A program made the translations under genes and the position numbers. The notes under the pieces are model-generated. The model saw only the letters and a list, made by a program, of their open reading frames with translations, was not told where the DNA came from and made no database searches. Below, in pieces: positions 7,414-32,387 of a stretch of 33,819 nt of DNA. The stretch comes from a virus: positions 1-33,819 of IMG/VR virus record IMGVR_UViG_3300031766_000031. One strand, written 5' to 3'. Each line of letters starts with the position of its first letter. The first letter of the stretch is position 1.

Positions 7414-7950
7414 ATGTCTTTTATGAACAACGCTGCAATTCTCAGTGAAATACAGAGAGAAAGAGAGAAAGCACAATTTCAACCTGAATTTCCCCTTGTG
7501 TATGATGGTACTTTCGGGCCCTATCGGCCAATAACGAATAAGGTAGAAAGTATACAAAAAGACTTTGAAAATCTGCTTCAAACATCGCCAGGAGAGTGGC
7601 CCTTCGACCCAGAGCTTGGAGTCGGCTTGAAGCATTATTTATTTGAGTTTCACAACTCTGAAAAAATGAATGAATTAGAACCAAACATAAGAAATCAGCT
7701 GGACAGATACTTGCCGGCCGTCAGGCTTATAGACTTAGAAGTTGTGGCTTCTCCGCAGGAAAAGGATGAATCCTTTGCGACTATAAAGATGAGGTACACA
7801 ATTGCAACTATTACTATGGCTGAGTTGGCGGCTCAACTGTTCGGGATGTACGGCAAATTAAAGATTACTAATATCTTCCATGGAGGACTATTTTCTTCTG
7901 GTGGCGTATACAATACTAACGCTTTAAATAATGATATAGAAACAATATAA
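7414..7950 (+). CDS. Baseplate wedge protein, GPW/gp25 family
   Basis: This is a T4 gp25 / P2 gpW-type protein, a small wedge component that helps anchor the sheath to the baseplate. The family signature is clear: S-I-x-K-D-F-x-N-L-L-x-T-x-P-G-E-W at about residues 46-63, then a G-V-G-L-K-H-Y-L-F-E block at about 69-80. A helix follows with the N-Q-L-x-R-Y-L-P motif at about 94-101. At 178 aa it is longer than T4 gp25 (132 aa); the extra length is an N-terminal lead-in of some 40 residues and a short C-terminal tail. The family was once thought to have lysozyme activity, but no catalytic site is evident here and a structural role is the modern view. It has a strong Shine-Dalgarno site and is followed after 12 bp by the gp6-like gene, its expected partner. 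Confidence 0.95.
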   Translation: MSFMNNAAILSEIQREREKAQFQPEFPLVYDGTFGPYRPITNKVESIQKDFENLLQTSPGEWPFDPELGVGLKHYLFEFHNSEKMNELEPNIRNQLDRYLPAVRLIDLEVVASPQEKDESFATIKMRYTIATITMAELAAQLFGMYGKLKITNIFHGGLFSSGGVYNTNALNNDIETI

Positions 7951-9786: not shown

Positions 9787-11666
9787 TGTCTATTAAAAGA
9801 TTTAAAGCAACAAAAGATAATACTATCACAGACGCATTCAAAGCTGATTTAACTGGCCGCGGCACATCAGGATCAATGGGTGCCTCTGATATTCTGGAGG
9901 TCTTTTCGATACATGCACAAGCAAATGAAACATCGCTGGAAAAATCAAGGATCATAATAGAATTTCCAGTTGACGGAATTTCCACAAAAAGAGCATCTGC
10001 AGAGATTCCGAAATCCGGTTCAGTCAGTTTCAAGCTTAAAATGTTTAATGCAGAACATTCTCAAACTACACCGAGTCAATATTGGATCTCTGCCCACCCA
10101 ATGCTACAATCATGGACTGAGGGCTCAGGAATGGATATGGAGGCTTACTTAAATGAGGGGGTTTCCAACTGGTATACTGCAAACACAGGAGACGACTGGA
10201 CCACTGCTGGTGGCACTTATCCGAATCCAAGCTTAATGCATTTAGACGATGATAACGCGCCGATGTCTTTTCCTAGCGAATATACGCAATACTTTGACAG
10301 CGGGACAGAGTCAGTTGACATGGACATTACCGAGTTTGTTGAAAATTGGATAGTGGAACACGAAGGTAATGCAGTTGCAGCCACGGGATCGTTGTTATTT
10401 TCCGGAAACCCCTCTTCGGGAGAGACTATAACTCTTTACTCTACAAGTGGCGAATACAAGATGATTCAGTTTTCAACATCTTCGTTACTTGAAAAGAACA
10501 CACTTTATGTCGACATTAAGGGTGACTTCGATCTCACTGCGGCTGAGCTTAACACAAGAATAAACGCTTTGATACCAGGACTGTTCACTTCAGCGATCGA
10601 CGGCAGCGATCCTTCAAAGTTACTTTTCACCCAATCCGTAGCTGGAATATATGGAAACACAATTCTTTCTGCATCTACCGAAGTTGGTAAAACGCTGGGT
10701 CATTTCGCGGGAGGAAAAGGCGCCAAAAATAATGGACTTTTGATAAAACTTTCAGGGTCTTTTGAGGACGGCACAAACTCCAAGTCGTATTATACCAAGA
10801 AATTCTTCTCTAGGACTTCCCAGTTTTATATGAAAAGGCCGATTATTGAAGCGCAGATAGATGATGTGAACAAAGATGACAGGGGAAACTTTTATAGAGA
10901 AACAGTTAGAGCCTCTGACGCGGATAATCTTAATACGATATATCTTTACAACAGAGTCAGAGGAGAAATGAAAGACCTTCCAGGGTTATCCGATGGGTTG
11001 TTAAGCGTAAGTGTGTATTCTGGATCAACTGGAGACATCCTCGATAGCACAGGAGGAGGCCAAAAGCAATCCGTAAAGGTATCAGGAGGCTCAAGCGCCA
11101 CCACTGTATCAGCCGGCTACATTTCGGGCCAACCAGGGGTCTACTCGGCCTCCTTTGCATATGCTGGCAACCTGGATACTCTCTATGATCAGTGGTACAC
11201 TGGAACTACAGCCGGCTCAAACTTAAAAATATACTCAAGCGGGTCTATAGAGGTGAAGCCGAGCGTCACGGATGCTGAATATGCGAGCCCTTCATTTGTG
11301 GTAAATATCAGCAATTTGAAGCCATCGTACAGTACAAACGAACGCGCAATGTTCAGAGTATATACTAGGAACAAGAACTGGAAACCAAATGTATATACCG
11401 TCGCTAGCCAAGCTGCACCGGTGGATATAATTAACGATGGATTTTACAGAGTAAAGAGAGTTGCAGATAACTTAGACGTGATATCCTATTCTACAGGAAG
11501 CACTCCAAGTTATTCTGGTTTATCGTATGATGTCAACGGTTCTTATTTCGAATTAGACATGTCAATTTTGGAACCAAACTATTTATATGAGATATCTTTC
11601 TTGCGAAAAGAAGGCTCGGAATATATCGAACAAAAGGAAAGGTTTAAGTTTAGAATAGACTCATGA
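9786..11666 (+). CDS. DNRLRE-type virion protein with an inserted fibre-like module
   Basis: The N-terminal ~195 residues look like a DNRLRE-type beta sandwich: a D-N-T-I-T-D-A-F strand at about 11-18, an I-I-I-E-F strand near 56-60, a W-T-E-G-S-G turn near 110, and D-I-T-E-F-V-E-N-W near 180-188. The expected partner block, N-N-G-L-L-I-K-L-S followed by Y-T-K-K-F-F-S-R, appears only from about residue 315. Between them, about 198-312, lies a separate unit (A-T-G-S-L-L-F through a G-N-T-I-L strand to F-A-G-G) that resembles a short module common in phage structural proteins. The remaining ~300 residues are Ser/Thr/Gly-rich beta sequence without a recognised domain. DNRLRE-like domains are usually extracellular or virion-surface domains. 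Position after gp6 suggests a baseplate-attached protein. It overlaps the genes on both sides (TAATG upstream, ATGA downstream). T4 has no obvious equivalent here. Confidence 0.72.
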   Translation: MSIKRFKATKDNTITDAFKADLTGRGTSGSMGASDILEVFSIHAQANETSLEKSRIIIEFPVDGISTKRASAEIPKSGSVSFKLKMFNAEHSQTTPSQYWISAHPMLQSWTEGSGMDMEAYLNEGVSNWYTANTGDDWTTAGGTYPNPSLMHLDDDNAPMSFPSEYTQYFDSGTESVDMDITEFVENWIVEHEGNAVAATGSLLFSGNPSSGETITLYSTSGEYKMIQFSTSSLLEKNTLYVDIKGDFDLTAAELNTRINALIPGLFTSAIDGSDPSKLLFTQSVAGIYGNTILSASTEVGKTLGHFAGGKGAKNNGLLIKLSGSFEDGTNSKSYYTKKFFSRTSQFYMKRPIIEAQIDDVNKDDRGNFYRETVRASDADNLNTIYLYNRVRGEMKDLPGLSDGLLSVSVYSGSTGDILDSTGGGQKQSVKVSGGSSATTVSAGYISGQPGVYSASFAYAGNLDTLYDQWYTGTTAGSNLKIYSSGSIEVKPSVTDAEYASPSFVVNISNLKPSYSTNERAMFRVYTRNKNWKPNVYTVASQAAPVDIINDGFYRVKRVADNLDVISYSTGSTPSYSGLSYDVNGSYFELDMSILEPNYLYEISFLRKEGSEYIEQKERFKFRIDS

Positions 11667-14600
11667 CAGATTATAGAAAAACAATAAAAAAAGTCGAATC
11701 TGACGAAAGAAAGATAAAGCTTTTCTCAAAGGCGAAAGTGCGAGTTTCCGATGAAGCCTCTGGGTTGTCGACAAAGAGTTTGGAGACAGACTCTTTGATG
11801 AGGACTCACAAGTCTAAGACACGCACCTTCAAGCCAAATATAAAGATCAAGGACCCATCATCTTTCGCTTTCTATGGCAGCGCAGAAAAGTATTATGCCG
11901 ACGCCGCATATAACATTTTAAATTATTATCCATTTGATGGTACTAGAGAAGAAATTATCGGATGGCACACATCTTCGCATGCACTAGACTCAGCCATACT
12001 AAGGAACTACTGGCCCGGGACCGTCGGCCACGCTAACTTTAACTATAGCGAATATATTAATTTTTACAATGGACCACAAGTTATTGATACTACTGAGTTT
12101 GTAGGTAGACTCAAGGGTGAAGAAACCGGCTTAAAGCTCAATCCTGTGTCGGGAAATACTGTCGAATTTTGGCTCAAAAAGGATGCTTTCAATGAAGCAG
12201 TGTTTCCCGAAGAGACTATATTTGATATAGGATCCTACCCGGGCAAAGTTGCCGATGCCTACTCTGGCCAGTTCAGAGTAACTTTAAATGCATCATCCTC
12301 CGGATCGCCATTCCAATTGACCTACAAGTCAGGCTCTATAGGAATGGACAACCAAGCGATAGGGTCCTCTGCAATTACGAAGGCCTCAACGGCAGATTCT
12401 AAATGGCACCATTATGCTATTAAGGTCTGGCACGCCGACGAAAAACTCGAAGCAAAACTTTATGTAGATGGTAAGTTCGACGCTCACATTTCCTCGTCAA
12501 TCGCAACGATGGGCAGCGTCGACACCTATATGGGCGGCACCATCGGAGGTAAACAGTCAGCAACAGGTTCACTTTCAGGTTCAATTGACGATTTTAGGTT
12601 TTGGAAAGGCGATCGCGATGCTCGCGACATAGCTCGAAACTTTGATAAAAGAGTTTACGCCAGTGATATTAACAACAAGGAATACAAATCCAGACTTGGT
12701 CTTTACTATAGATTCAATAAAAGAATAACAGGTGACAACACTAAAGACTATCTTGTAGTGGACTATTCAGGAAACGACATGGTTGGAGAGGTAAAGAACT
12801 ATTCTTCAACTTCCAGGGTTAACACTTCAGCAATAAACCTAAGCCCCGTAAGTGAAAACACGGAGCCGAATGATGCAATCATGGATGCAAGCGACACTAC
12901 ACTAGTATCTCTTATGAGCAGCTTGTATCAAATAGGACAATCCTACGATAGCAATAATCATTCGATGCTGACCAGATTTCTGCCAGAGTGGGCCCAGCCG
13001 CAAGAGTCAGAGTCAGAAACAAAAAGCCAGGACCACTTTTCAATATTACTTCAATTGATGGCTGCAGAATTCGATACTGTAAAGTTAAGCATAGATCAGA
13101 TACACATAAATAGATTTTCAAGGTACAGCGATCTCGAAACAAATTCCGAAGATGTCAACGGAGACGTGGAGGTTTCTTCTAGTTACGCTGACAACTATTT
13201 CCATGGATGCTCGGATGACTCGCTACCTGCTATTCCATCAGTGGGTAATAACATAGATCTATCCGCCGCGCTTCTTGACAGGTACGGATTGAGAGTCTTA
13301 GAGTTGCCGATTGTAAACTCCATGGATGACGCAGATGCACCTGAGGGTTACAATGGGCTAGTTAGGTTCGAGGCTGAACCAGAAAACTTGTCCCGCGGCA
13401 TTATAAGCAATCTTTGTGCCGAAGCTACAAATATTATAAAGACCAAGGGCACACCATTAGCTTCTTCTTATATTCTCAGAGGATATGGTATCGATGAAGA
13501 ACATGTGAGCACCAAAATGTATGGCAACAACACTTCACTGTTTATTGAAGATTCAAAGATTAGAACTGTAACTGAAGAGAAGAATGTAATAAACCTAAGT
13601 GAAAACAGGGATGCAACTCTTTATCTTTACGCTACAGATACCACCGAACAGAGATCCTATATAGAATCGAATGAAATGGAATCAGAGTATACTTTCGAAG
13701 GGAACTTTATTTTTCCTAATAAGATCAGTTCGGAACACGAAATCACATCAGCATCGGTCTTCGGAGTACAGGAAGTCGCCGCAACCGACAATGATCTCAC
13801 CACGGAAGATCCCTCTCGAGCCCGCATTCAAGTTTCGGTTGAAAAACTCAACAAAGGAAACAATGAAGCGCGCTTCAGATTGAGTTCTACTTTGCCGGAG
13901 ACAGAAGATATATACACTCCTTATTTCCCGGCTGTATATACAGACTCTAGGTGGCACATCTCAGTCAAAGTTTTAAAGGACGCTGACAACAAATTTGTTA
14001 CACCTTCAACTGGCAAATACAAAGTCGACTTTTCAGGATATAATTATGTGCTGGATAACCTGCAAAATTCTTTTGAGCTTTCCTCTGCGGTAAGTGCATC
14101 TGCCTATAATGGATTTCTATCTTCTAGCAAGTCCATCTACCTCGGCGCCGCCCGCGAAAACATTATAGGATCAGTGACTCAGCAATCTGACATAAAAATA
14201 ATAAATTTCAGTGCATGGAACGACTCACTCACCAAGGATGAATTAAAACTAAGGGCAAAGTCCCCCTCAATTACTGGCAGAAACAAACAGCACGAGTACG
14301 GAGACAAAAATCTTTCCAACAATAGCCTGCTGGACAAAAATTTGATTATGGATATAAGGTTTGACTCCAATACCGCCGTCCCTGCCGACGGAATAATAAA
14401 CGTTATAGATCAGAGCTCTGGGTCTGTAGAGAACATACATCGGTACGGGAAAGAGGTTGGGTACAAGTATCCTGTAAAGTCGACCCAATTTACAACAAAC
14501 ACATCAAATGTCACACAACCCGCATTTCTCACGACAGTACAATTTCTTGAGCCCGGAACTTTGTATGAATCAGATAGTATCGTACTGAGAGACTCGGATA

Positions 14601-17600
14601 TCAATAAATTTAAAGTAGGCGAAAAACCAGAGAACAAAGTGTTGTCTTTCGAGAAGAGTATGTATCATTCTATATCCAAGGAAATGATAAACTTTCTATC
14701 GGGTATTGAATCCCTCAACAATATTATAGGGGATCCTGTTAACAAATATAGAAAAGATTACAAGTTAATAAATCACTTAAGAGCGAAATTCTTCGAAAAA
14801 GTGGAAAATGAAAATCAGTTTGAAAGGTACGTTGAATATTTTAAATGGATAGACTCTTCAATTGGTAAGTTCTTAGAGCAAGTGGTACCGGCGTCAGTTA
14901 AATCTAATACTGGAATTCAGAACGTGGTAGAGAGCCATGTATTGGAAAGAAATAAATATGATTACAAACTACCGCAGGTCAAGAAAAGCTCCCCGGACAT
15001 AGCAGCAGTTGTTTCTGGTAGAACGGAACAAAACTACGTTTGGCAATATGGCCACGGTACGGCGGATACTGAGGATACTACGGGATTCGTGTGGCAACAA
15101 GACCGAAATGAAACTACATCTATCAGATCACTACTGGTTAACGCTCGCCTAAATGTCAACTCGAATGCCTCATTAAAAGTAGAAAAGAGCTACTCAGACC
15201 GAGCACTAGCAAGGACTTATGAGAAAGAGGTGGTAAAAGAGAAGATTTTATCTGAAGGTTCTAATAATGAAAAAAACAAGAAATCAGAATTTTACAAACT
15301 TGTAGATTTAGGAAAAGAAATAGAACTCAAGACTGAAGATATTTCAGACATGAAGAAACCTAGTGATGTTCTTTTTCCAGAGAAAGATAAAAGTTACAAA
15401 TCTTTTGTGAGAACCTCTAACTTTGGCGCAAGAATAGAGGGTTCCGGCGAAGCTTATTTGCCATTTACCCTATATAGCTCATCGGTTGGAACTGACTTCC
15501 CAGACTTTAAGCAAAATATGAAGATTGCGAATAATCACGACCGTACGGCAGCAATGCAAGGTCCATTCGCAGCCACACATGTCGACGGCATGCCCCACAG
15601 GAGAGTTGAATTTGGAACCCCCACTTCTAATAGGCCCGAGGCTTATGATATATCTTCATCAGCCACACAATTAGTGATTAAGAAAACCTCAAAATCAAAA
15701 TCAATGATCTCCCGCGGCCTTGCTGGACATCGATTTTACAACATTGCAAATCTGCTCACGACAACAGCTTCACTGTCTATAGGCAATTATACAAATGCCT
15801 ATGAGATAATACACACCAATGGTCGCAACGCGAACAACAGACACCTCGTAGCCAACTCTGGAGCAGACCTCACAGGTTCACTTGTGCAATCCTTGCACAT
15901 ATCTGGGGTGACAGACTTTCCAGTACCAGAAAGGGTAAGATCCGGACACGTCATAGTTAACAGGTTTTCATCACCCGGGGCGTCAGAGTCAATGAGTGCA
16001 TATGGTCTAGACAGAGAGTCTTCAGAATACTCTATATATGACACAGTCAACTATAGAAACAATGTGGTTAGGCACGTGAAAAACGTTTTAGCATCAGAAC
16101 ACAGCGGAAGATTCGGATACCGATCATCAAGCGCAACTCAGGCATCAGTACACAAAACCAATAGAAACCCACTAAGATACACAGGATCCTTGGGGGAAGA
16201 GTTTGATTATGATAATTTCTACATACAACATCCTATGCCTCAGAATGATTTTGGATATTCTTGGATTACTGCAAGCGCAAACGAAACTGTGTATAGCTTC
16301 TTGAGCAAGAATGCAAACATAGGATATCAGAATCTTTTCAATTTATCGGGTACGCTCAAGTCTAGTGAGACAATTTCTTTTACGATTGCATCAGATATAA
16401 TTCCGACTTTAGATTACGTGGGGCTTAACTCGAACACCACTAGGAGCGTTGACACTGAGACTAATTTACTTTCCGACACTTCTCCTGATTTAAATTCTAT
16501 TATACTGAGCAAGCAGGGCCCTTACGGATGGCCAACATGGAAACAGACGAAGGGAGACCAACACCCAATCACCCGCGCCCAGAGAGCTAAAAACATATAC
16601 TCTATAGTATTTAGGGATACCTCGCCGTTTCCAGATGTTTACCCGGGCGTTCAGTATGATTATACAAACACTGTGGAAGATGCCACACCTGCCGTGCAAG
16701 CACGAACAACTAAAAACTTTACAGAAATGTTTGCGACTTCAAAGTTCAAGCCATTAACGGTCAGTATGCACCAGCTTACGAGCGAAACGACACCGGAAAG
16801 TTTAAGAAATATTGATGCATCGACCCCAATGGCTCAACACACATTAGCAAATCTTTGGCACAATGATCAATATTGGCACCCATTTTTAGAAAGATCAATA
16901 AACGCCGATATGCCAAGCGTCTCCATGAGGGCAACAGTACAGAATGAAATCACGACTTTCGCCAACAGTGAAATGGCGGATAACATGAAATTCAAAGAAG
17001 AAGACTTTTCTAGAAGTCAGACTCTTCAAAAGGTAGCTGAATTCTACAAGGGTCTTGAATTGGCTCCCGGGTCAAGTGAAAAATTTAAGGAAATAAGCTA
17101 CGTTGAAACAGTTTACCCGAGAGAAACAAACACTTATACAAAGGCCGCGCGAGACAGGGAGCGATTTAGCTTCTTCGGGTGGAATTCAGATAGAGCCCTT
17201 CGCTCTTTGATTTTGACAGGAAACTTGACTTACGAGCCTTTCTTGGTGAGTAATACAACTCAAAAATCATTTTTGATCCCATCTGCCTCGAGCCCAGAGA
17301 TGGAATTCAGATCCTCCTATTTCGATAACATAGAAGCAGTCGACTTAAATTCAACTGGTACCTTGGCCCATATAACTTCAAGTACTTATATAACAAGTAG
17401 TACCTGGGTTTTAGATTCGCGGCAAGACTTTAGCACCACTCCACTTAGTTTGACCTCCTCGTTTTTCTCTAATGGAGAAGCCTTCTTGTCGTCAAGAGAA
17501 AACGGAACCAGAGGAGAGGGTATATTGCAAAATGACTATAGCATCTTCGCTATGGGTTATAATGGACTCCGCGGCGCCCCCCCATTCGCGCCGGTTTATA

Positions 17601-20600
17601 ATAGGAGAATACCTCAGATAATCGGGGCCGACGAGTACCTCGCAGGTGAAGCCAAATGGATCGCCGCGGACAATCACCAGGCTCCGTTTTATGATAGTTA
17701 TGAGGAATATTCCAAAGACATAAGGATTATAGGTCAAGATTATTCTTTGATACCTGAATTCACTATAAGCAGGTTTATAGAGGATATATACGATTCCGGC
17801 GATATGACCTCCGCGGCACTAAGGGGTGACTTTTTACACTTAACCGGTGCCACATACCACACATCCTCTGGAGATGTATCGGTGGGGTCTCAGTTCTTCA
17901 AAACATACTCAACTACTGATTTCTTGAAGTATTTTCAGCCAACACAGGACAGCATAAAAGCGAATAATCTATCACTTGCTGCCGGACGCTTGACTTTAAG
18001 GTGCCAGGCCGCAATGAAGTTTTTGCCTTATAGAGGTTTCTATCCCGCAGAGAGAGTAGTTCAAATCTCGGAACTCTTTAATAGGGGTTATTTGCCATCA
18101 GGTTCATATTCTGCCGGATATATAACGAACACAGGAACCACAGCTGCTGAAGCTAACAAATTCTTAACCTTGAGAATAGAGAATTCTAAAGCAGCTGCCT
18201 TAAAACCTATTATGGCACCAGGTGTTTTATTTAACTCAATTAAAGCAGGCTTAGCCGTTGATTACCCGATCTTCTCTTCCTCGGTGAGTACCGGAATCGA
18301 CTATATAGTTGGCCAAAAGTACGAAACGCCTGTTACTTCGTACGAGACATTGGGCCTGACCTCTACTACTTGCTTTATAGGGTCTGAAGTGAATTCTACG
18401 CAAGACGTGGGTATACCTAGGTTGTCCGGCTCTGTCTCTAGGCGAGTCGGCTTTGATGATATATTGAACCCAGAACGACTTATGAAAGAGGTGATATATG
18501 ATAACGAGCCACATCCAAGCGCCAGTTTGATGTACGGAACCGCTCAGTGGACGAAAGTGCTCGAGCGACCATCAAAATTTGGGTTCTTAGATCAAGATGA
18601 AACTAAATCAAAAATATCGATAGATTTTAATATGACAGAAGATAGCTTTGAGAGCTCTATGATGCCGTACAAGAGCGCTATAAACAACTTCGCGGCTGAG
18701 ACAGTAGAATTTTTCCTGGAGGGCCAAAAGCTACAAACAGTAATGTCAGAACCAGTTGAGCCACAACTAACAAAGAATGTCTCATATTCGATGAAAGTTT
18801 ACATCAATAACGTGGATACTGTTATGTATGATAGACATTCAGCCTTTGGACCCCCGGTTGACGATGGCGCGCCAAACATCAAAGGGTATTCCTCTCAAAC
18901 CTTAGGATCTGGACTGTTCACCATGAGCACATTATCTACCAGTACTTCTGCCAAGCAGGGTTCTCATGGGTTCTTGCCTTACGTGCCCCCTTTTCTAGAT
19001 CCAAATACAAGTCCGCATGTCTTGTTAACTTTCAAGCCGAAAGAGACTAGGACGTATTCGATTCCCGAGATAATAGAGAATATAACAGCTTCATACTACA
19101 ACGTTCAAAGACCATCAAACGCAACAGAAAACGTTAACTATAGTGAAGCAATGTCTATATCAGCGAGTCTAGATTTTACGAAATATGTAAAGCTCTATAG
19201 TGATAATTTTAGAACGACTGCAGACGGCTTATCTTCACCGATTGATCCCAACTCAACGAATAAATATAGGTGGGTAATTCAGCCAAAGTGGGAAACTCCA
19301 GTGATGGATTTTAAGTCAGTAGATGTGCCCACGATCAATATGGGTAGCGGCGTAGTAAAGAATCAGAATGGATCACCATGGAAAACCAGATATCAAACTG
19401 CTTATTATGAGAATGTAAAGCCAGTCTCAGATGTTCACCTGACATCTTCTACGGGAATGTGGCACCAATCTGGCACAATACTTAAGGAATCTGACCCGAA
19501 GGGGTATACTCTCTCAATCCGCGGAGCCGCGGACAATATAAAGAAAGGAGTGGGCAATCTCGCCGCGGCCGTGGGGTTCCTGAGTCAGGAAGCGTCCAAA
19601 TCTTATGAAACTTCCACGGAAGATTACAGATCTGTCAAATTAGGTAGACTTGCAAAAAAGAAAGTTATAAGCGAGTCAGTCGTGGCGATACCTTACTATC
19701 TGGATGAAAAAGGTAACATGAAGATGCTTCCATTGAATGAAGAGGCTCACAGCCGAGCGAAATCAGTCAACAAGGACATAGAAGAGAAACTGGTAAGATC
19801 AGCACAGGAAGCCAGCACACCAAATGATGTGAGGGCGGCATACAATGCTTACGAAAAACTCTATGATTCAACAGGTAGAGACGCTACTACGTCAATTGCA
19901 TACCAGTTGCGAATGATGGACAAGTATATCTTGCCACCACACTTTGACTTCTCCAGGAATAGTAATATAATTCCTCACGTTGCATATTTCTTTCAGTTTA
20001 AAACGGAATTAACGCAAGAAGACCTTGCAAGTATCTGGCAGAACCTCCACCCAGTATCAAAAGGAACTGCAGTTGAAGCAAAACATTCAAGTGTTGATCA
20101 TGACTCAGAAAAATCAGACGTTGAATATGTTACAGGTTACTTGAAACCAGAAGATATTCCAATGCTGTCTGGAAGAGAATCAAATTACAAGGATGCTTCC
20201 AAATTCCTGGAGAACGAAGTGAGATGGCTTGTGTTTAAAATAAAATATCGAGCCGCAAATTATTACAAAGACACCGTCATTGGCTCGATTGGTAACACAA
20301 GAAAAGATATAATGATACTTAATAAGGAATCTGTAGAATCAAACAAAGAGTCTATTACAGATAAGGACGAAGCTACGTTTTCAAAGTTTGGATACAATTG
20401 GCCCTATGATTACTTTTCGATCGCAGAACTAATTAAAATTGATAGCAAGGTGGACTTTTATACCACCGCTGCAACACTGACAACAACTGAGGAGACTCAA
20501 GCTTTGCAAACACAGACATATGCCATGACTGATGCACAGACAGAGTCAAATGTTGATACAACAACTTCGGTGATGGAGTATGAGATTGTATCTGCACCGG

Positions 20601-20893
20601 CCGCCGGCGGTGGTAGCGGAGAAGAGGTGCTTAAGTTGCCAGACATTGATCTTTCGGAGCTCATGGTTACTAGAGAGACTCTTAAGTTGGAAGCTGATAG
20701 TGTTCCTAGTCCAGCAAATCAACTCACTGCAGTGATTGCAGGAATCAAGGAAGGGACAGAGTCTCTATATGTTAATGGCGTACTCCAGTCATTCGGCGCG
20801 TCCGCTGACTATACCATTTCTGGAAACACGATTACTTTGACTTACAACCTAGAGTCTGATGATGCGGCTTATATAACATATGCTAAGGAGTAG
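11663..20893 (+). CDS. 3,076-aa baseplate-associated protein with LamG-like domains
   Basis: This is the largest gene of the window. A LamG/concanavalin-like domain is readable at about residues 160-320: N-T-V-E-F-W-L-K, W-H-H-Y-A-I-K-V, L-Y-V-D-G-K, and S-I-D-D-F-R-F-W. A tail-protein motif follows at about 437-480, with F-L-P-E-W and L-L-Q-L-M-A-A-E-F-D, as seen in many baseplate/tail proteins. A second, more divergent LamG-like unit spans about 675-855 (R-W-H-I-S-V-K-V; I-I-N-F-S-A-W-N). Residues about 900-2600 have no domain I can name. A conserved-looking region near 2750-2930 ends in Y-N-W-P-Y-D-Y-F-S. The last ~45 residues (Y-V-N-G-V-L-Q through I-S-G-N-T-I-T-L) look like a fibre-type beta domain. 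LamG domains bind glycans in many proteins, so host-surface contact is plausible but inferred. The start overlaps the previous stop as ATGA. The stop is TAG, the only one among the complete genes here. Confidence 0.8.
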   Translation: MTDYRKTIKKVESDERKIKLFSKAKVRVSDEASGLSTKSLETDSLMRTHKSKTRTFKPNIKIKDPSSFAFYGSAEKYYADAAYNILNYYPFDGTREEIIGWHTSSHALDSAILRNYWPGTVGHANFNYSEYINFYNGPQVIDTTEFVGRLKGEETGLKLNPVSGNTVEFWLKKDAFNEAVFPEETIFDIGSYPGKVADAYSGQFRVTLNASSSGSPFQLTYKSGSIGMDNQAIGSSAITKASTADSKWHHYAIKVWHADEKLEAKLYVDGKFDAHISSSIATMGSVDTYMGGTIGGKQSATGSLSGSIDDFRFWKGDRDARDIARNFDKRVYASDINNKEYKSRLGLYYRFNKRITGDNTKDYLVVDYSGNDMVGEVKNYSSTSRVNTSAINLSPVSENTEPNDAIMDASDTTLVSLMSSLYQIGQSYDSNNHSMLTRFLPEWAQPQESESETKSQDHFSILLQLMAAEFDTVKLSIDQIHINRFSRYSDLETNSEDVNGDVEVSSSYADNYFHGCSDDSLPAIPSVGNNIDLSAALLDRYGLRVLELPIVNSMDDADAPEGYNGLVRFEAEPENLSRGIISNLCAEATNIIKTKGTPLASSYILRGYGIDEEHVSTKMYGNNTSLFIEDSKIRTVTEEKNVINLSENRDATLYLYATDTTEQRSYIESNEMESEYTFEGNFIFPNKISSEHEITSASVFGVQEVAATDNDLTTEDPSRARIQVSVEKLNKGNNEARFRLSSTLPETEDIYTPYFPAVYTDSRWHISVKVLKDADNKFVTPSTGKYKVDFSGYNYVLDNLQNSFELSSAVSASAYNGFLSSSKSIYLGAARENIIGSVTQQSDIKIINFSAWNDSLTKDELKLRAKSPSITGRNKQHEYGDKNLSNNSLLDKNLIMDIRFDSNTAVPADGIINVIDQSSGSVENIHRYGKEVGYKYPVKSTQFTTNTSNVTQPAFLTTVQFLEPGTLYESDSIVLRDSDINKFKVGEKPENKVLSFEKSMYHSISKEMINFLSGIESLNNIIGDPVNKYRKDYKLINHLRAKFFEKVENENQFERYVEYFKWIDSSIGKFLEQVVPASVKSNTGIQNVVESHVLERNKYDYKLPQVKKSSPDIAAVVSGRTEQNYVWQYGHGTADTEDTTGFVWQQDRNETTSIRSLLVNARLNVNSNASLKVEKSYSDRALARTYEKEVVKEKILSEGSNNEKNKKSEFYKLVDLGKEIELKTEDISDMKKPSDVLFPEKDKSYKSFVRTSNFGARIEGSGEAYLPFTLYSSSVGTDFPDFKQNMKIANNHDRTAAMQGPFAATHVDGMPHRRVEFGTPTSNRPEAYDISSSATQLVIKKTSKSKSMISRGLAGHRFYNIANLLTTTASLSIGNYTNAYEIIHTNGRNANNRHLVANSGADLTGSLVQSLHISGVTDFPVPERVRSGHVIVNRFSSPGASESMSAYGLDRESSEYSIYDTVNYRNNVVRHVKNVLASEHSGRFGYRSSSATQASVHKTNRNPLRYTGSLGEEFDYDNFYIQHPMPQNDFGYSWITASANETVYSFLSKNANIGYQNLFNLSGTLKSSETISFTIASDIIPTLDYVGLNSNTTRSVDTETNLLSDTSPDLNSIILSKQGPYGWPTWKQTKGDQHPITRAQRAKNIYSIVFRDTSPFPDVYPGVQYDYTNTVEDATPAVQARTTKNFTEMFATSKFKPLTVSMHQLTSETTPESLRNIDASTPMAQHTLANLWHNDQYWHPFLERSINADMPSVSMRATVQNEITTFANSEMADNMKFKEEDFSRSQTLQKVAEFYKGLELAPGSSEKFKEISYVETVYPRETNTYTKAARDRERFSFFGWNSDRALRSLILTGNLTYEPFLVSNTTQKSFLIPSASSPEMEFRSSYFDNIEAVDLNSTGTLAHITSSTYITSSTWVLDSRQDFSTTPLSLTSSFFSNGEAFLSSRENGTRGEGILQNDYSIFAMGYNGLRGAPPFAPVYNRRIPQIIGADEYLAGEAKWIAADNHQAPFYDSYEEYSKDIRIIGQDYSLIPEFTISRFIEDIYDSGDMTSAALRGDFLHLTGATYHTSSGDVSVGSQFFKTYSTTDFLKYFQPTQDSIKANNLSLAAGRLTLRCQAAMKFLPYRGFYPAERVVQISELFNRGYLPSGSYSAGYITNTGTTAAEANKFLTLRIENSKAAALKPIMAPGVLFNSIKAGLAVDYPIFSSSVSTGIDYIVGQKYETPVTSYETLGLTSTTCFIGSEVNSTQDVGIPRLSGSVSRRVGFDDILNPERLMKEVIYDNEPHPSASLMYGTAQWTKVLERPSKFGFLDQDETKSKISIDFNMTEDSFESSMMPYKSAINNFAAETVEFFLEGQKLQTVMSEPVEPQLTKNVSYSMKVYINNVDTVMYDRHSAFGPPVDDGAPNIKGYSSQTLGSGLFTMSTLSTSTSAKQGSHGFLPYVPPFLDPNTSPHVLLTFKPKETRTYSIPEIIENITASYYNVQRPSNATENVNYSEAMSISASLDFTKYVKLYSDNFRTTADGLSSPIDPNSTNKYRWVIQPKWETPVMDFKSVDVPTINMGSGVVKNQNGSPWKTRYQTAYYENVKPVSDVHLTSSTGMWHQSGTILKESDPKGYTLSIRGAADNIKKGVGNLAAAVGFLSQEASKSYETSTEDYRSVKLGRLAKKKVISESVVAIPYYLDEKGNMKMLPLNEEAHSRAKSVNKDIEEKLVRSAQEASTPNDVRAAYNAYEKLYDSTGRDATTSIAYQLRMMDKYILPPHFDFSRNSNIIPHVAYFFQFKTELTQEDLASIWQNLHPVSKGTAVEAKHSSVDHDSEKSDVEYVTGYLKPEDIPMLSGRESNYKDASKFLENEVRWLVFKIKYRAANYYKDTVIGSIGNTRKDIMILNKESVESNKESITDKDEATFSKFGYNWPYDYFSIAELIKIDSKVDFYTTAATLTTTEETQALQTQTYAMTDAQTESNVDTTTSVMEYEIVSAPAAGGGSGEEVLKLPDIDLSELMVTRETLKLEADSVPSPANQLTAVIAGIKEGTESLYVNGVLQSFGASADYTISGNTITLTYNLESDDAAYITYAKE
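20885..20890 (+). promoter_or_regulatory. Shine-Dalgarno site inside the end of the 3,076-aa gene
   Basis: AAGGAG lies immediately before the TAG of the giant gene and six bases before the ATG at 20897. The ribosome site of the next gene therefore overlaps the coding end of this one. Confidence 0.7.
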
Positions 20894-20896
20894 AAT

Positions 20897-21739
20897 ATGA
20901 CATTTTTTAACAAAAAAGAAGAAGTCATGGACATCGAACTGACGCGTTTCGGAAGGGATGCCTTAGCAAGAGGATCTTTTAGGCCGGCCTTTTATCAGTT
21001 TTTTGACGATGACATTCTATATGACGCATCATGCATGGGGTTCTCAGAGGATCAAAATGATTCTGAAAAAAGAATACTCGAAGAGACACCCAGATTAAAA
21101 ACGCAATCAATCACTTACCCGATAGAGAAGGCATTTGCTCTCGAAGCAGAAATGATAGAGGACGGGAAGATGGAAAAGTTCAGGACAATATCTAGAAATG
21201 CAGATCCGATAATCCAGGAGAGGATATTATTATACCCGATTCACTCTTACAATATCATGACACCAGAGAGTCCAAGGATCAAGATGCAGTCTCATTTTCA
21301 AAAAATGAAAGGAGGAATATCTTATCTTCATCTAACTGAATCGGGAATTATTAAGAACATTCCTCAGATTTCTTTTGAACCTGAGTATACGATAAGGAAC
21401 AATAGGGATAACCTTAAAGAACCAGAAATGCTGACTCAAGAAACTTATATAGATTTGTCGTCCAGAAACGCTGAGTTTCTAGACGGCTCAACAGTATCTG
21501 TCACTTCGAAGGACATAGTCGTATCCCTAGAAGAACTAAATTCGTTTTACGGCCTAGACAATTTTGAGCTAGAAGTATACGAAGTTATAGAGGTCGATGG
21601 TATGGATGACACTTTGATTAGACTGGAAACGATGGAGGAAATAAATAAGTATTTTCACATCAAAACAGATGAACATGTCCTCTCAGCTGACGTACCTGAC
21701 TTGAAGCATAGAAACTATTATAAGAAGGGTGAGAGCTAA
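20897..21739 (+). CDS. Putative virion protein, L-T-x-x-G-R N-terminal family
   Basis: This 280-aa acidic protein has no catalytic motif. Its first ~45 residues carry a clear block: F-F-N-K-K-E-E-V, D-I-E-L-T-R-F-G-R, L-A-R-G-S-F-R, then F-F-D-D-D-I-L-Y-D. The same block, with different wording, opens the 344-aa protein at 28311, so the two share an N-terminal domain. I remember this opening from hypothetical structural proteins of large marine phages. The rest is mixed alpha/beta with a Glu/Asp-rich C-terminal half. It sits between very large virion genes and its TAA overlaps the next ATG by one base, so it is probably made in a fixed ratio with the following 1,032-aa protein. A small connector or baseplate-to-fibre adaptor is one possibility, but this is inference from context. 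Confidence 0.78.
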   Translation: MTFFNKKEEVMDIELTRFGRDALARGSFRPAFYQFFDDDILYDASCMGFSEDQNDSEKRILEETPRLKTQSITYPIEKAFALEAEMIEDGKMEKFRTISRNADPIIQERILLYPIHSYNIMTPESPRIKMQSHFQKMKGGISYLHLTESGIIKNIPQISFEPEYTIRNNRDNLKEPEMLTQETYIDLSSRNAEFLDGSTVSVTSKDIVVSLEELNSFYGLDNFELEVYEVIEVDGMDDTLIRLETMEEINKYFHIKTDEHVLSADVPDLKHRNYYKKGES

Positions 21740-24840: not shown

Positions 24841-27800
24841 ATGACAGAGGAAAACACATACAACCCATGCGATGAAACAGGGGAGCGCTCCGCCACTCAT
24901 TCACTCGAATCCGGCCTTGCAGGATCTCTTTCACAATTCGCTAAAGCAGAATTCGAGGAGATCTCCGGGTCTGCCGCGGCATTTCCAATACCTCAACCGC
25001 CAGAAGCTTCTAATTATGATTCTCTTCGAAAGGTAGTCATGGTTAATCGATCTCATTATTTCGCCGGTCACCCCTCCGCGCTCCGGCCGTCGCACTTCAG
25101 GAGCACGCAAGAAGCATTTTCCATAGCTGGAGATAACTCGATCCTGGCCACATCAGTCGACTCCCTTAGATATGTCCTAGGTAAACAAATTCTACTTGAC
25201 CAGTCCAAGAACGTTGTTCCTGCCCAGCTCGACAACCCCGGTTTAAAATATAAAAAAAGAAACATTAGGACATCCGACGATACACCGGGGGTCTACGTTA
25301 CTAACGGAGTTATAGAGGTTGATAGGGAATATTTCGAACGCGGCTATCAGAATCTCAACTCCCAGGGTGGATCATTTGACAGGTTAATTAAATCCATCGT
25401 ATATGGTTCACCAGATTCCGGGTTTCAAAACTTGAGCTACCCAAACATTCTAGGTGGCCACCCGAACACACAGAGACTTATCGACACTACTTTTTCCGCA
25501 CCGGCCGCATATTCGCTCGTAGAATCAGAGAGTTCCGAATCCACCATGGATAGAGTTGAGATGGTGGCATCTTCTTACAAGAGCATTTTAGAATTAAACC
25601 CGAACCCATTTAAACTAGGAGACAGTGTATACAGGAAATACAAAGAAAAAATGGAGCCAGAACTTTCCCAAATACATGGTCACCCAGAGTATGATGAGGT
25701 TCAGAAATTTCCGGCCGATCAAATCCAGGAAATTTTAGAGATTAATAGAATAGCGATGGAAGAAGCCGAATCGCCGTACTGGTCCAGCGCCCAAGGCATC
25801 TTAGAGACTCATGTTAAGATTACTTTCAGTATGCACCACTACAGTCCAGTTGCGGAAATATTTAAAAACAACAACATGGACACTTATGTTTTGGAGCTGA
25901 TGAGTGATGTGCCTCTTTCAGGCCAAACGGCGTATGTTCAAGTTTTGGATCAAGTGGAGTCGAGCATGTCCGAACAATTTTCACACACCAGGCCTATGGG
26001 TACAATCAATGATAGACTCGTTGAAATATACAGACCCGCCGACGCATCGATTATCCCCAAGCTACAAGAGTTGCGTCCCGCAGGCTATGTGAGCGCCCTG
26101 CAGCAGAAAAATACTATAGAATTAAATAGCGAGGAATACCCTCTATCACATCCGGATGTGTCAAGAAAGGGTCTCCAAGCACAGGTATATAACAATAATT
26201 TAAATAAATTGCTAAGCGAACTTGAGACAGAGCTTGAAGAGAAGAAAAGAACGTTTGATAATATAATGGAGGACGGAAGCCAGTGCCACTCAGAAGTGGT
26301 GGCCTATAGAATTGAGAAGAGAATAAAAGAAACAGGCGCCCCCGTACAGAATTTTTACTTTTTCAACGATCCAGACACTACAGAGATGACATTTTACGAC
26401 ACCCAGGTGAAACATGGGATAAACTACACATATAGCATATATGCGATTAATTTTGTAGTAGGGTGTGAATACAAATATATAAGCGGCCCCGGGAGAATGT
26501 ACCCAGGCCCATTTAACACTGCGCGGCGTCGACGAGGCCGAGGAGAAGGATCCAGCGCCCCGACGAAACAACACTTCATGTTCTCCGTCGAGAGTCGAGA
26601 TCTTTATCAACTAATAGAATCTCCATACTACCAAGAAGACATAGAAGTTCTCGGCGCGCCACCGTTGCCACCAGGAATAGATATAACACCAGTAGGTTCC
26701 TACAATCAGCAACGCGGCGACTTTGATTATATTGAAGGCAATTTATTTAATATAAGTCTTGCGCCTAGGGCTGGAGAGATAATAGCAGAGGCTCCTGTTC
26801 AAATACTGGACCAAGATGCACGGTCAATTGATCGAATGATAGCATCTTCCCCTCGCGGCCTCTTGGGGGAAGTCGTATATAAAGGAGACAATCTTCCCAC
26901 TGAATATCAAGTACTGATCATAGATAAGCCACCAATCAGCTACGGGGATTTTTCCTCAGCCCGTGTCATTAGCATGTACTCCGCAGCTAGCATTGTTGCA
27001 ATAACACCAAACACTGACTATTACTTGATATGTAGGGCGATTGATTTTTCGGGAATATCCAACCCAAGTGAGGTTTATAAAGTGAGGATCAACAGTTCTG
27101 CCGCCGGCAATTCTTTGAATTTTGATGTTCAAGGGTTTGCACAACCTGGCGTTAAATCGCTCATAAGTTTTAGAGACTCTCTGATGATTGCACCAGCCCC
27201 TGCGCAATCGACAGTTAATTACACCGCAGTCCCAGGCGCCCGAGAAGGCACTGCCGAATTTTACCAATCTGCACCGCATTCAGCACAGTTAACCCTTGGT
27301 GTATCAAAAAACGAAGAGGATTTGGTGTGGGATAAGAAATTTAAATTCAGACTAAAGTCTAAACACACTGGAAAAGCCATAGATTTAAATGTTACGTTCA
27401 AGGAGAAGAAGTTTGTTAAAGTTCCAGCCAATGAACCTGGAGGAGTTTATATTCCTAGTATGCGAAATATCGCCATCACAGAAGATGTACTGCCCGTGCC
27501 TCAGTTATCTGAAACAGACATCAATGGTACAGGTATGTTCGAGAATTTACCAGAGATAAGCAACTTGCCTACTTTCCAGTCTGACTTCGATTTCCAGTTT
27601 GATGCAGAGTTCGCAGATAATATGATTAACCTGAGAGGTATAACCGACGCCATGGCTGATCTTGGAGTCCTAAGTGACCTTGCTAATACATTGGCAGGAG
27701 TGGGAACCCCGGGAACCGGCTTCGGCTTCGGTTCAACAGGCGGTTATGATACTGGCTTCGGCGGTGGCATGGCAGGTGGCTTCGGTGCACCTGGTGGCTT

Positions 27801-28212
27801 CGGCGGCGGCATGGCAGGTGGCTTCGGTGCACCTGGTGGCTTCGGCGGTGGCATGGCAGGTGGCTTCGGTGCACCTGGTGGCTTCGGCGGTGGCATGGCA
27901 GGTGGCTTCAATGGCATTGCAGGAGGTGTTCCTGCCGAAGATGCATTTGGCGCCACCACAGGCGCCGGCACAACAGGTGGTTATGGTTCTGGGCGAGTTC
28001 GAGTGTTACAAGCTGAAACAAATGGTACTGGGGTCACCTCACATGCAGGGAGTTCGAATTCTTGGCCAGGCATTGAAATAGAGGGCATTGAAATAGAGGG
28101 TCTCGCCACTGTGACATCTGAGGCATCAAGAGGCATGAACCAGGAACAACAATCGAATAACAATACGAGAAACACTGGGACAACCCGGGTACCAAGCAAC
28201 TATCGTTTTTAA
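24841..28212 (+). CDS. Fn3-containing virion protein with a glycine-rich repeat tail, 1,123 aa
   Basis: Three parts can be seen. Residues 1-480 are mixed sequence without a known domain. Residues about 484-550 and 680-750 look like fibronectin-type-III folds: Y-T-Y-S-I-Y-A-I in the first, and T-P-N-T-D-Y-Y-L-I-C-R-A-I-D in the second. A short block near 833-860 (K-F-K-F-R-L-K-S-K-H-T-G-K, I-D-L-N-V-T-F) resembles a motif I remember from related phage structural proteins. From about residue 955 the protein becomes glycine-rich, with near-identical 14-residue repeats (G-G-F-G-G-G-M-A-G-G-F-G-A-P) at about 972-1023. It then ends in a polar, probably disordered tail of ~75 residues with a duplicated G-I-E-I-E. 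Fn3 and glycine-rich segments in phage tails usually lie in exposed fibres or adhesins; that role is inferred. A 98-bp gap follows, so this is likely the last gene of its transcription block. Confidence 0.78.
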   Translation: MTEENTYNPCDETGERSATHSLESGLAGSLSQFAKAEFEEISGSAAAFPIPQPPEASNYDSLRKVVMVNRSHYFAGHPSALRPSHFRSTQEAFSIAGDNSILATSVDSLRYVLGKQILLDQSKNVVPAQLDNPGLKYKKRNIRTSDDTPGVYVTNGVIEVDREYFERGYQNLNSQGGSFDRLIKSIVYGSPDSGFQNLSYPNILGGHPNTQRLIDTTFSAPAAYSLVESESSESTMDRVEMVASSYKSILELNPNPFKLGDSVYRKYKEKMEPELSQIHGHPEYDEVQKFPADQIQEILEINRIAMEEAESPYWSSAQGILETHVKITFSMHHYSPVAEIFKNNNMDTYVLELMSDVPLSGQTAYVQVLDQVESSMSEQFSHTRPMGTINDRLVEIYRPADASIIPKLQELRPAGYVSALQQKNTIELNSEEYPLSHPDVSRKGLQAQVYNNNLNKLLSELETELEEKKRTFDNIMEDGSQCHSEVVAYRIEKRIKETGAPVQNFYFFNDPDTTEMTFYDTQVKHGINYTYSIYAINFVVGCEYKYISGPGRMYPGPFNTARRRRGRGEGSSAPTKQHFMFSVESRDLYQLIESPYYQEDIEVLGAPPLPPGIDITPVGSYNQQRGDFDYIEGNLFNISLAPRAGEIIAEAPVQILDQDARSIDRMIASSPRGLLGEVVYKGDNLPTEYQVLIIDKPPISYGDFSSARVISMYSAASIVAITPNTDYYLICRAIDFSGISNPSEVYKVRINSSAAGNSLNFDVQGFAQPGVKSLISFRDSLMIAPAPAQSTVNYTAVPGAREGTAEFYQSAPHSAQLTLGVSKNEEDLVWDKKFKFRLKSKHTGKAIDLNVTFKEKKFVKVPANEPGGVYIPSMRNIAITEDVLPVPQLSETDINGTGMFENLPEISNLPTFQSDFDFQFDAEFADNMINLRGITDAMADLGVLSDLANTLAGVGTPGTGFGFGSTGGYDTGFGGGMAGGFGAPGGFGGGMAGGFGAPGGFGGGMAGGFGAPGGFGGGMAGGFNGIAGGVPAEDAFGATTGAGTTGGYGSGRVRVLQAETNGTGVTSHAGSSNSWPGIEIEGIEIEGLATVTSEASRGMNQEQQSNNNTRNTGTTRVPSNYRF
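27754..27909 (+). repeat. 42-bp in-frame tandem repeat, about 3.7 copies
   Basis: The unit starts GGCTTCGGCGGTGGCATGGC and repeats every 42 bases; the shared ATGG core recurs at 27769, 27811, 27853 and 27895. Three copies are complete and the fourth breaks off near 27909. By eye I see only a GGT/GGC difference, in the second copy. Each unit encodes 14 glycine-rich residues, so gain or loss of a copy keeps the frame. Confidence 0.93.
28069..28098 (+). repeat. 15-bp direct tandem duplication
   Basis: GGCATTGAAATAGAG occurs twice back to back (28069-28083 and 28084-28098), encoding two copies of G-I-E-I-E in the tail of the 1,123-aa protein. It is exact, which suggests a recent slippage event or pressure to keep it. 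Confidence 0.9.
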
Positions 28213-28310: not shown

Positions 28311-29345
28311 ATGGCGTTTTTAGATAATTCTGGAGATATTATACTAGATGCGGTCTTAACAGACCTAGGTAGAAAGATGTTAGCAGCCGGAAATTTCCGC
28401 ATACACAAGTTTGCTTTGGGGGATGAAGAGATCGACTATTCGCTCTACAACACCTCGGATACACGCGGTAATGCTTTCTACGATCTTGAAATAATGCAAA
28501 CGCCAATATTAGAAGCTTTTACTAGCGATCAGTCTCTAATGAAGTCTAGACTGGTAACGTTAACTCAGAACAACATATTGTACATGCCAATCCTCAAGAT
28601 GAACAACAAGTATAATTCTTGTAAGCCAGATGCAAACTTGAATGGATTTAACTTAATTGCAGATACCGTCACGTATTCGGGAAACAACGTGTTCAATTCT
28701 GTAGCTGAAGCCGGCTTTTTGCACGGTGTTCCTAGGGAATATGCATCAACCACGACGCACATCTGTATCGATCAGGGTATAGACTCTAGCGACAATGGAC
28801 AATCCATTGCAACTAGAATGCGCCCAGAGCTTCTTGAGACCGCGTTTGACATCAAGGTCGACGCAAGACTACTTACTATCGATAATTTTATTGGAGGCCA
28901 AACAAAGACAGCGCCGGCAACAACTGTTACCATCGACGATGACGGCATAGCTACTTACAGGATACAGCAGGGTGTCGGAGATTCATCGATTGTCGGCCCA
29001 TATGACCCATCTAGAGCCTTCGCCGGCGAGCGGTCACGCGAGGATATACTTTCTGCTGACCAGACGCGTCTAACGGCGATTAGAGACACTTCAGAGGTGT
29101 TCGCAGGTCCACTCGGAAACGTCCTAAGAATAGCACCTCGCACAACCCCAGCAATTCAGACTTCAACTTCTTTGTTCACTGAGTTAGGGTCTGATGGGGC
29201 GGATCTCTTATTCAGGGGTGTCTCAGCCGGCATTGACGTATATAAGTACATTGACACAACGATTAGCGTGACTGGTATTACAACAGGATACACACTAGAT
29301 ATTCCAATTCGAATCATTAAGGGTTCCGCTTTTACATCACCATAA
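28311..29345 (+). CDS. Putative virion protein, L-T-x-x-G-R N-terminal family, second copy
   Basis: This 344-aa protein opens with F-L-D-N-S-G-D-I-I, A-V-L-T-D-L-G-R, L-A-A-G-N-F-R and then G-D-E-E-I-D-Y. The same pattern opens the 280-aa protein at 20897, so the N-terminal ~45 residues form a shared domain. The remaining parts do not obviously align. The rest is beta-rich with Asp-rich turns (V-T-I-D-D-D-G-I-A-T-Y near residue 206) and no catalytic motif. I remember such proteins as common hypothetical structural genes in large marine phages. It has its own strong Shine-Dalgarno site and is the first gene after the 98-bp gap, so it may start a separate transcript with the two genes behind it. 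A role in the tail or fibre attachment is inferred from neighbours only. Confidence 0.78.
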   Translation: MAFLDNSGDIILDAVLTDLGRKMLAAGNFRIHKFALGDEEIDYSLYNTSDTRGNAFYDLEIMQTPILEAFTSDQSLMKSRLVTLTQNNILYMPILKMNNKYNSCKPDANLNGFNLIADTVTYSGNNVFNSVAEAGFLHGVPREYASTTTHICIDQGIDSSDNGQSIATRMRPELLETAFDIKVDARLLTIDNFIGGQTKTAPATTVTIDDDGIATYRIQQGVGDSSIVGPYDPSRAFAGERSREDILSADQTRLTAIRDTSEVFAGPLGNVLRIAPRTTPAIQTSTSLFTELGSDGADLLFRGVSAGIDVYKYIDTTISVTGITTGYTLDIPIRIIKGSAFTSP

Positions 29346-31709: not shown

Positions 31710-32387
31710 GTGAAGCACAAGTCTCGCAAGCTGAAGTTTTTAACAGTGAAGCTCAAGTCGATGCAGTCTGAATTGGAAATATCAAAAGAAATTTTACAAA
31801 CCGCGGGCACCGAAGTCGAAAAGATCTACAGGGAAAAGTACATCCAGCAAGACAAGACCACGGCTCCTGAATCCACATCTGAAATGGAAGAATATTCCGA
31901 ACCAGAACAAAGAGCTCCCCCAAGCCAAGAAGGCGTATCGGAGACTTCAAATCCGGAACCAGAACCAAAAGAACCCCCAAACCCAGAAGATGTACTGGAG
32001 TCTTCAAAAAAAAATGCAGATCCCAAATCTAAAAAGATATTCCGCAAGATTGCAACGAAGATACATCCAGATAAGTTGGCCCAGATTGAAGATGAGTATG
32101 AAAAAGAGGTCAAGCGCAGATTGTACAGTAAAGCCATCACTGCTTTTGAAGAAGGTGACATATTGTTGTTAGCTGAGATAGCGATTGACTTGGATATTGA
32201 CATTCCGGAAATAGATGAGCAAAGATTACAGTTGACAGAACAGAAAATATCTAGTATAAAAGAAGAGATAAAAGTGATAGAATCAACCATGGTTTGGCAT
32301 TGGTTCTTTTGTGAGGGTGTCGAAGCAAAAGAAAAGATATTAAACAAACTACTGGAGTTGATGCATGAAAAATATACTAGGTCTTGA
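31710..32387 (+). CDS. J-domain (DnaJ-like) protein
   Basis: The start is GTG, two bases after the previous stop; an in-frame ATG at 31761 is the alternative. The first ~50 residues are Lys-rich helix. Residues about 52-100 are a Pro/Glu/Ser-rich disordered linker with imperfect P-E-P-E-type repeats. A J-domain-like unit follows: K-K-I-F-R-K-I-A-T-K-I-H-P-D-K, with the HPD signature at 119-121, and then a helix rich in Lys/Arg. The order is unusual, because the J domain normally sits at the N-terminus in DnaJ. The last 60 residues are helical, with I-K-E-E-I-K and a C-terminal Lys/Glu helix. J proteins stimulate the ATPase of Hsp70/DnaK; the likely partner is the host DnaK, since no chaperone gene is seen here. 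A role in virion assembly or replication-complex remodelling is inferred. It overlaps the resolvase gene by 23 bp. Confidence 0.83.
   Translation: MKHKSRKLKFLTVKLKSMQSELEISKEILQTAGTEVEKIYREKYIQQDKTTAPESTSEMEEYSEPEQRAPPSQEGVSETSNPEPEPKEPPNPEDVLESSKKNADPKSKKIFRKIATKIHPDKLAQIEDEYEKEVKRRLYSKAITAFEEGDILLLAEIAIDLDIDIPEIDEQRLQLTEQKISSIKEEIKVIESTMVWHWFFCEGVEAKEKILNKLLELMHEKYTRS
32354..32357 (+). promoter_or_regulatory. Shine-Dalgarno site of the resolvase gene inside the J-domain gene
   Basis: GGAG lies seven bases before the ATG at 32365, within the last coding stretch of the J-domain gene, and supports the 23-bp overlap of the two genes. Confidence 0.6.

Follow-up and report, generated by a model that had tools for sequence, protein, structure and literature searches.

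Does a short glycine-rich repeat near the end of a putative phage tail gene record a recent duplication, and would it serve as a receptor-binding tip? The question is raised by IMG/VR virus record IMGVR_UViG_3300031766_000031, whose 33,819 nucleotides were analyzed in full (hereafter the window) and in which a gene encoding 1123 residues carries a 42-bp tandem array close to its 3' end (Table 1). An initial annotation had described near-identical, frame-preserving copies, attributed them to recent expansion or gene conversion and suggested an exposed role similar to that of the T2/S16-type gp38 adhesins. We find that the array is real, recent, in frame and glycine-rich, that it lies in a lineage-specific extension, and that a relative of the gene at another locus, L021, is a separate and parallel case. 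The explanation that we favour, with a probability of about 0.6, is that tandem duplication has been at work in an extension of a tail-module protein with a fibronectin type III (FN3) fold, and that this extension is under weak constraint, flexible and probably exposed.

Table 1 Position of the array, of the gene that bears it and of related features in the window.
Feature	Position	Strand	Description	Basis
42-bp x 3.7 array	27753-27909	+	residues 972-1023, unit GFGGGMAGGFGAPG	TRF, repeat search, codon reading
15-bp x 2.1 array, perfect	28069-28100	+	GIEIEGIEIEG, in the same extension	TRF
Array-bearing gene	24841..28212	+	1123 aa; member of a large phage family	ORF; gene order and conserved core
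Beta-rich stretch	26284..27108	+	residues ~482-756; predicted FN3 at ~600-756, probable second FN3-like domain before it	AlphaFold2
C-terminal extension	27427..28209	+	residues 863-1123; no confident predicted structure	AlphaFold2
Conserved neighbour	28311..29345	+	344 aa (MAFLDNSGDIILDAVLTD...); served to find the family	
gp25-like baseplate wedge gene	7414..7950	+		Pfam PF04965 E 2.3e-10 (above cut-off); PHROG 261

Tandem Repeats Finder (TRF) gave the array the top score of the whole window (307), with a period of 42, 3.7 copies, 98% matches and no indels. A separate repeat search returned in-register copies of 73 nt, spaced by 42 nt at 27753, 27795 and 27837 and 97-99% identical to the reference copy, together with a weaker copy (63%) at 27711. 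Read by codons, the full units begin at 27754, 27796 and 27838 and all encode the same peptide; their sole difference is one silent base, C at 27807 where 27765 and 27849 have T, just as the initial annotation had it. A partial fourth copy reads GFGGGMAGGF, after which the match stops. The array follows the frame of the 1123-residue open reading frame (ORF) throughout, so that the claim of frame-keeping units also holds. Glycine accounts for 30 of its 52 residues, in runs of at most three; the unit is composed solely of G, F, M, A and P, and another 100 residues lie C-terminal to the array. Its GC content is 69% (43% for the window), and GGC or GGT supply 48 of the 56 glycine codons in 27691-28209 versus 259 of 499 in ten other gene stretches counted. 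At the DNA level the unit divides into pieces of 24 and 18 bp, each starting GGCTTCGG. With the codon usage of the window, the chance that the unit, encoded twice independently, would match at 14 of 14 codons is about 10^-6.8, and because this is so improbable we take the copies to be duplicates; because they are near-identical, the duplication is recent. The statement that the rest of the gene is free of repetition was nearly right, but the perfect 15-bp array lies about 160 bases further downstream. An ORF of 135 aa in another frame (27674-28081) spans the 42-bp array and is probably a by-product of its GC-rich composition.

To compare the array across relatives, family members were searched for with the gene itself and then with its 344-aa neighbour, which gave relatives in IMG/VR and neighbour loci on six contigs of metagenome-assembled genomes (MAGs). 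The 105 ORFs matching the profile were reduced to 82 distinct proteins, the window's included, by dropping ORFs that stop short of the end of the conserved core and ORFs sharing identical last 300 residues; exclusion of four proteins without the start of the core left 78 aligned rows, the 77 relatives being 18-29% identical to the 1123-aa protein. Contig ends cut some of the rows (for example L106). The members found here come from metagenome contigs and MAGs only, with conserved gene order, and one scan returned at least 479 stretches that encode relatives of the 344-aa neighbour. The initial annotation had called for a comparison of repeat number among related phages: TRF did not detect the window's array in any of the 81 other loci, and a different array was found in L021. 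Both results, together with the near-identity of the copies, agree with the recent expansion that had been proposed. A degenerate DNA pattern for the 14-residue unit gave 0 matches in viral contigs. Viral contigs, genome contigs and phage records yielded no close relative of the window, and none was recovered for L021; the collections may omit near-identical entries.

The array of L021, a 91-kb contig, is likewise in frame and glycine-rich (48 bp x 3.5, 98% by TRF) and lies in the same part of the protein, the C-terminal extension past the core. Two copies of its unit, GAGPGGSGQGSRQMPF, are identical, a third has one replacement, a fourth has partly decayed and the stretch after it has decayed further; the unit also contains Q, R and S. 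In a tree computed from the core alone (78 rows, quick method), L021 groups with L001, L002 and L006 (Shimodaira-Hasegawa-like approximate likelihood ratio test, SH-aLRT, 88) and the window with L014 (SH-aLRT 91), and TRF detected no array in any of these four loci. Common ancestry of the two units was considered and set aside as not significant, their DNA similarity being reached by 257 of 5000 codon-shuffled pairs and their peptide similarity by 4584 of 5000 shuffled pairs. Separate origin of the two arrays is the simpler reading.

An array of this size may be miscounted by an assembler. The 157 bp of the window's array and the 167 bp of that in L021 are close to common short-read lengths, and their longest exact repeats reach 60 and 79 nt, so that a longer or variable true array might have been collapsed to about one read length. 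The window is moreover a whole virus record of 33.8 kb that is possibly a fragment. On the other hand, the copies can be ordered by the silent base of the second unit and by the dissimilar sequences on either side, an assembler using k >60 would resolve the window's copies as given, and collapse would alter their number and not the existence of the repeat. We consider it unlikely that the repeat count is an assembly product.

We then asked where such arrays fall. The extension past the core has a median length of 9 aa and an upper quartile of 21.5 among the 82 proteins, and reaches 40 residues or more in 17 of them. The window and L021 belong to a set of 10 rows (SH-aLRT 84, not starred) in which every extension is long, from 66 to 489 aa; long and short states require six changes on the tree at minimum. 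Only 3 of the 45 pairs of extensions in this set have scores reached by 4 or fewer of 200 shuffles, and the L001/L002/L006 group supplies two of the three; for this reason the extensions of the set appear mostly unrelated. Arrays of at least 3 copies at 90% or more number four (window, L021, L078 and L091) in the 1.10 Mb around the 82 genes. Since the window was chosen for its array, it was omitted from the enrichment count; one of the three remaining arrays falls in the extensions, which make up 0.70% of the bases, giving a chance of about 0.02. Because the cut-off was fixed after the rows had been seen, this is a hint only. Nor is the in-frame unit evidence of function, because nearly all of the arrays listed by TRF outside the window have periods divisible by three (all but one, of period 22), whether or not each is coding. 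Three loci added later (L120, L122 and L146) have extensions of 64, 19 and 9 aa and stand outside the tree and the counts; one of them holds a weak 21-bp x 2.1 repeat.

Several other observations concern the extensions. A tyrosine occurs among the last three residues in 11 of the 17 proteins with an extension of at least 40, in 2 of 61 short-ended ones and, among the remaining ORFs of these loci, in 156 of 596. The longest extension (489 residues, L016:1266-6242) is rich in cysteine and proline and has no Pfam match. The idea that long extensions were gained in exchange for tail-fibre genes found no sign in the ORFs between a 407-aa neighbour and the primase gene, compared in the loci where both landmarks were located (one was not found in several loci). 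Most of these loci have one or two intervening ORFs of about 170-225 aa, with long and short extensions alike, but some short-extension loci have more or larger ORFs (e.g. L097, L047, L073 and L089).

The structure of the protein was predicted with AlphaFold2. A run on an alignment of 10 rows was poor (mean predicted local distance difference test score, pLDDT, of 46) and was superseded by one on the 78-row alignment (mean pLDDT 66), in which the core is mostly confident. The beta-rich stretch of the core has pLDDT mostly above 80, except at about 551-580 and at 621-630. Residues 600-756 match single FN3 domains with Z of 8.9-10.1 and root-mean-square deviations (rmsd) of 2.2-3.1 in VIA. The best Foldseek matches are FN3 pairs, given without ranges, with E values down to 7.9e-07 for FN3 domains of fibronectin, and T5 pb4 and the lambda central fibre are among the matches. 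From the Foldseek pairs and the strand pattern, a second FN3 domain is predicted at about 482-600; we infer it rather than count it as matched, because the two-domain VIA matches begin at about residue 218 with an rmsd of about 10. Five entries of BFVD, a collection of predicted viral structures, match the whole model well (E 8.9e-45 to 7.4e-16), and the fold therefore exists in UniProt. The FN3 fold and the upstream gp25-like gene make the tail-protein setting given in the initial annotation probable. Structure prediction had also been proposed as a check for polyglycine packing, and here it gave no confident fold: the extension that holds the array has pLDDT below 50 throughout, with weak short helices at 922-951, and taken alone it has no Pfam match up to E 0.1. 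It is likely a flexible, disordered chain by this model, and likely rather than proven because it has almost no aligned relatives.

These predictions bear on the suggestion that the array binds a receptor as an adhesin domain, in the manner of the S16/T2 gp38 polyglycine-II sandwich or the glycine-rich Pam3 gp24 tip, with glycine helices or strands stacked in parallel and their loops exposed. Composition speaks for it: glycine makes up more than half of the glycine-rich part in both phage proteins (30 of 52 residues here, 37 of 73 in S16 gp38; PMC6851490), and its share exceeds the 49 of 125 reported for gp24 of myocyanophage Pam3, a tail fibre with a glycine-rich distal part (PMC9608196). The upstream gp25 gene and the T5 pb4 and lambda fibre matches fit as well. 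However, S16 gp38 is described as having ten glycine-rich motifs borne on a five-ring beta-helix, with hypervariable segments between them that are related to host range (PMC6851490), whereas the segments that part the glycine runs are identical in all copies here, in one genome, and the longest glycine run is three. In Pam3 gp24 the glycine loops are reported to leave a TNF-like domain and to diverge at the tip (PMC9608196). Thus in both described cases the glycine segments are loops on a beta domain, and no such arrangement is seen in the array, a linear C-terminal stretch that has no confident structure. Sequence searches (Pfam, PHROGs and PDB sequences, each up to E 1) returned no gp38 or adhesin match, and lend no support to homology with gp38. 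Pfam and PHROGs both contain a gp38 model. Neither gp38 nor Pam3 gp24 is among the PDB structure matches listed by Foldseek and VIA, an absence that does not count against a fold of either kind, and the extension is not confidently modelled. Of the gp38-like role, the glycine content stands, and adhesin matches, a confident fold and hypervariable segments are missing; receptor binding as in gp38 is only loosely supported, by analogy in glycine content alone, and we regard an adhesin of this type as improbable. The segment may still make contact of some kind with the host, since the glycine-rich tail-fibre proteins of haloarchaeal hafunaviruses, also encoded at a tail locus, track host range (PMC8651126).

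The same composition could also be that of a tether or an aid to assembly, comparable to the chaperone tails rich in glycine, methionine and phenylalanine (the GGM tail of GroEL or the G/F region of DnaJ), with no host contact. A unit made only of G, F, M, A and P recalls these, and regions of low complexity rich in G, M and F mark chaperones in a survey (PMC6821194). The likeness is compositional only and the L021 unit adds Q, R and S, so we hold this to be very unlikely. The same survey reports glycine-rich low-complexity regions in prokaryotes and phages, with Ala, Gly and Pro enriched in those of phages and GGC as the commonest glycine codon in those of bacteria and archaea; it stresses conserved regions, whereas the array here is found in one lineage only (PMC6821194). 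The BACON repeats of crAss-like phages are also tandem repeats of multiple origins in tail-associated proteins, but as described they repeat whole folded domains, and here 14-16 low-complexity residues are repeated (PMC6949934). In the open-access literature on disordered baseplate tails and on glycine-rich or intragenic tail repeats, we found no closer precedent than the gp38, gp24, hafunavirus, BACON and low-complexity cases.

That a related virus has a different repeat in the same extension suggests a site at which such repeats are gained and lost, and not an established receptor-binding element. In the reading we favour, tandem duplication on a loosely constrained extension, the gene would encode a structural protein of the tail module with an FN3 fold in its core. 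That core would have acquired, within the clade of the window, a C-terminal extension of low sequence constraint, in which the 42-bp unit was recently duplicated in tandem, through polymerase slippage or unequal recombination. The frame would have been preserved through these duplications since a frameshift would cost the protein its end. The product would most likely be a flexible, glycine-rich segment exposed to solvent, for which the exact sequence counts less than length and composition, and it may touch the host surface in a loose, auxiliary way. We infer the duplication mechanism, the location in the virion, the flexibility, the exposure and any host contact. A bolder version makes the extension an evolvable tip on a fixed core, which each lineage would remake through bursts of glycine-rich tandem duplication that keep the frame, with copy number setting the reach and stickiness of host contact and no retroelement or dedicated enzyme involved; we consider this quite unlikely.

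Several points weigh against the favoured explanation. Support for the 10-row set is no higher than an SH-aLRT of 84, and extensions of at least 40 also occur in seven rows elsewhere in the tree, two of which (L008 and L034) lie in the group neighbouring the set. Strong arrays are absent from 15 of the 17 long extensions, so two coincidences could account for the apparent hotspot. The enrichment depends on a single array other than the window's and on a post hoc cut-off, and its base fraction divides the extension lengths of 77 proteins by the bases of 81 loci. The arrays of the window and L021 may also derive from one ancient glycine-rich seed, 5% of the shuffles reaching their DNA similarity. 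The low pLDDT may stem from the sparse aligned relatives over the extension instead of disorder, and the place of the protein in the virion tail is suggested by gene order and predicted fold.

The surroundings of the gene are sparsely annotated. The gp25-like gene is evidence, from sequence, for a putative contractile-tail module, and RuvC-like and primase genes lie downstream of the array-bearing gene. The 1123-aa protein has no Pfam family up to E 1 and a single, chance-level PHROG match (E 0.12); annotated phage records contain no relative of it at E 1e-5, and none of the upstream genes at 21739 and 20897 at E 0.01. Six phage records, including those of Flavobacterium phage immuto and Microcystis phage Mel-JY01, match the 344-aa neighbour across 28-40% of its length, and the 78-row profile did not match the large proteins just upstream in these two (probabilities 0.1-0.3%). 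In pairwise comparisons a 1336-aa protein of Mel-JY01 weakly matches the window's 3076-aa protein (E 9e-07), and the 403-aa protein of immuto did not match the window's 280-aa protein. The 3076-aa protein (11663-20893) has a concanavalin-like domain (Laminin_G_3) at residues 162-324 and is a candidate for host contact. A 57-bp x 1.9 repeat (79%, TRF) at 31899-32008 lies inside a 225-aa gene (31710-32387) with weak family matches only. In L092 (2384-5587) the homologous region is split over two ORFs, the first ending in a HINT/intein-like domain (Pfam PT-HINT 1.7e-06, AXH 3.8e-11, Intein_splicing below cut-off), and the core match is likewise divided between two ORFs in L075 and L095.

The finding marks a large phage family whose tail module is almost unannotated. 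If the extension is exposed, it would be a simple case of repeat-driven change of the phage surface, in two related viruses and with different units. If it is only a loose tether, it would serve as a warning against calling glycine-rich repeats in tail genes adhesins on the basis of their composition.

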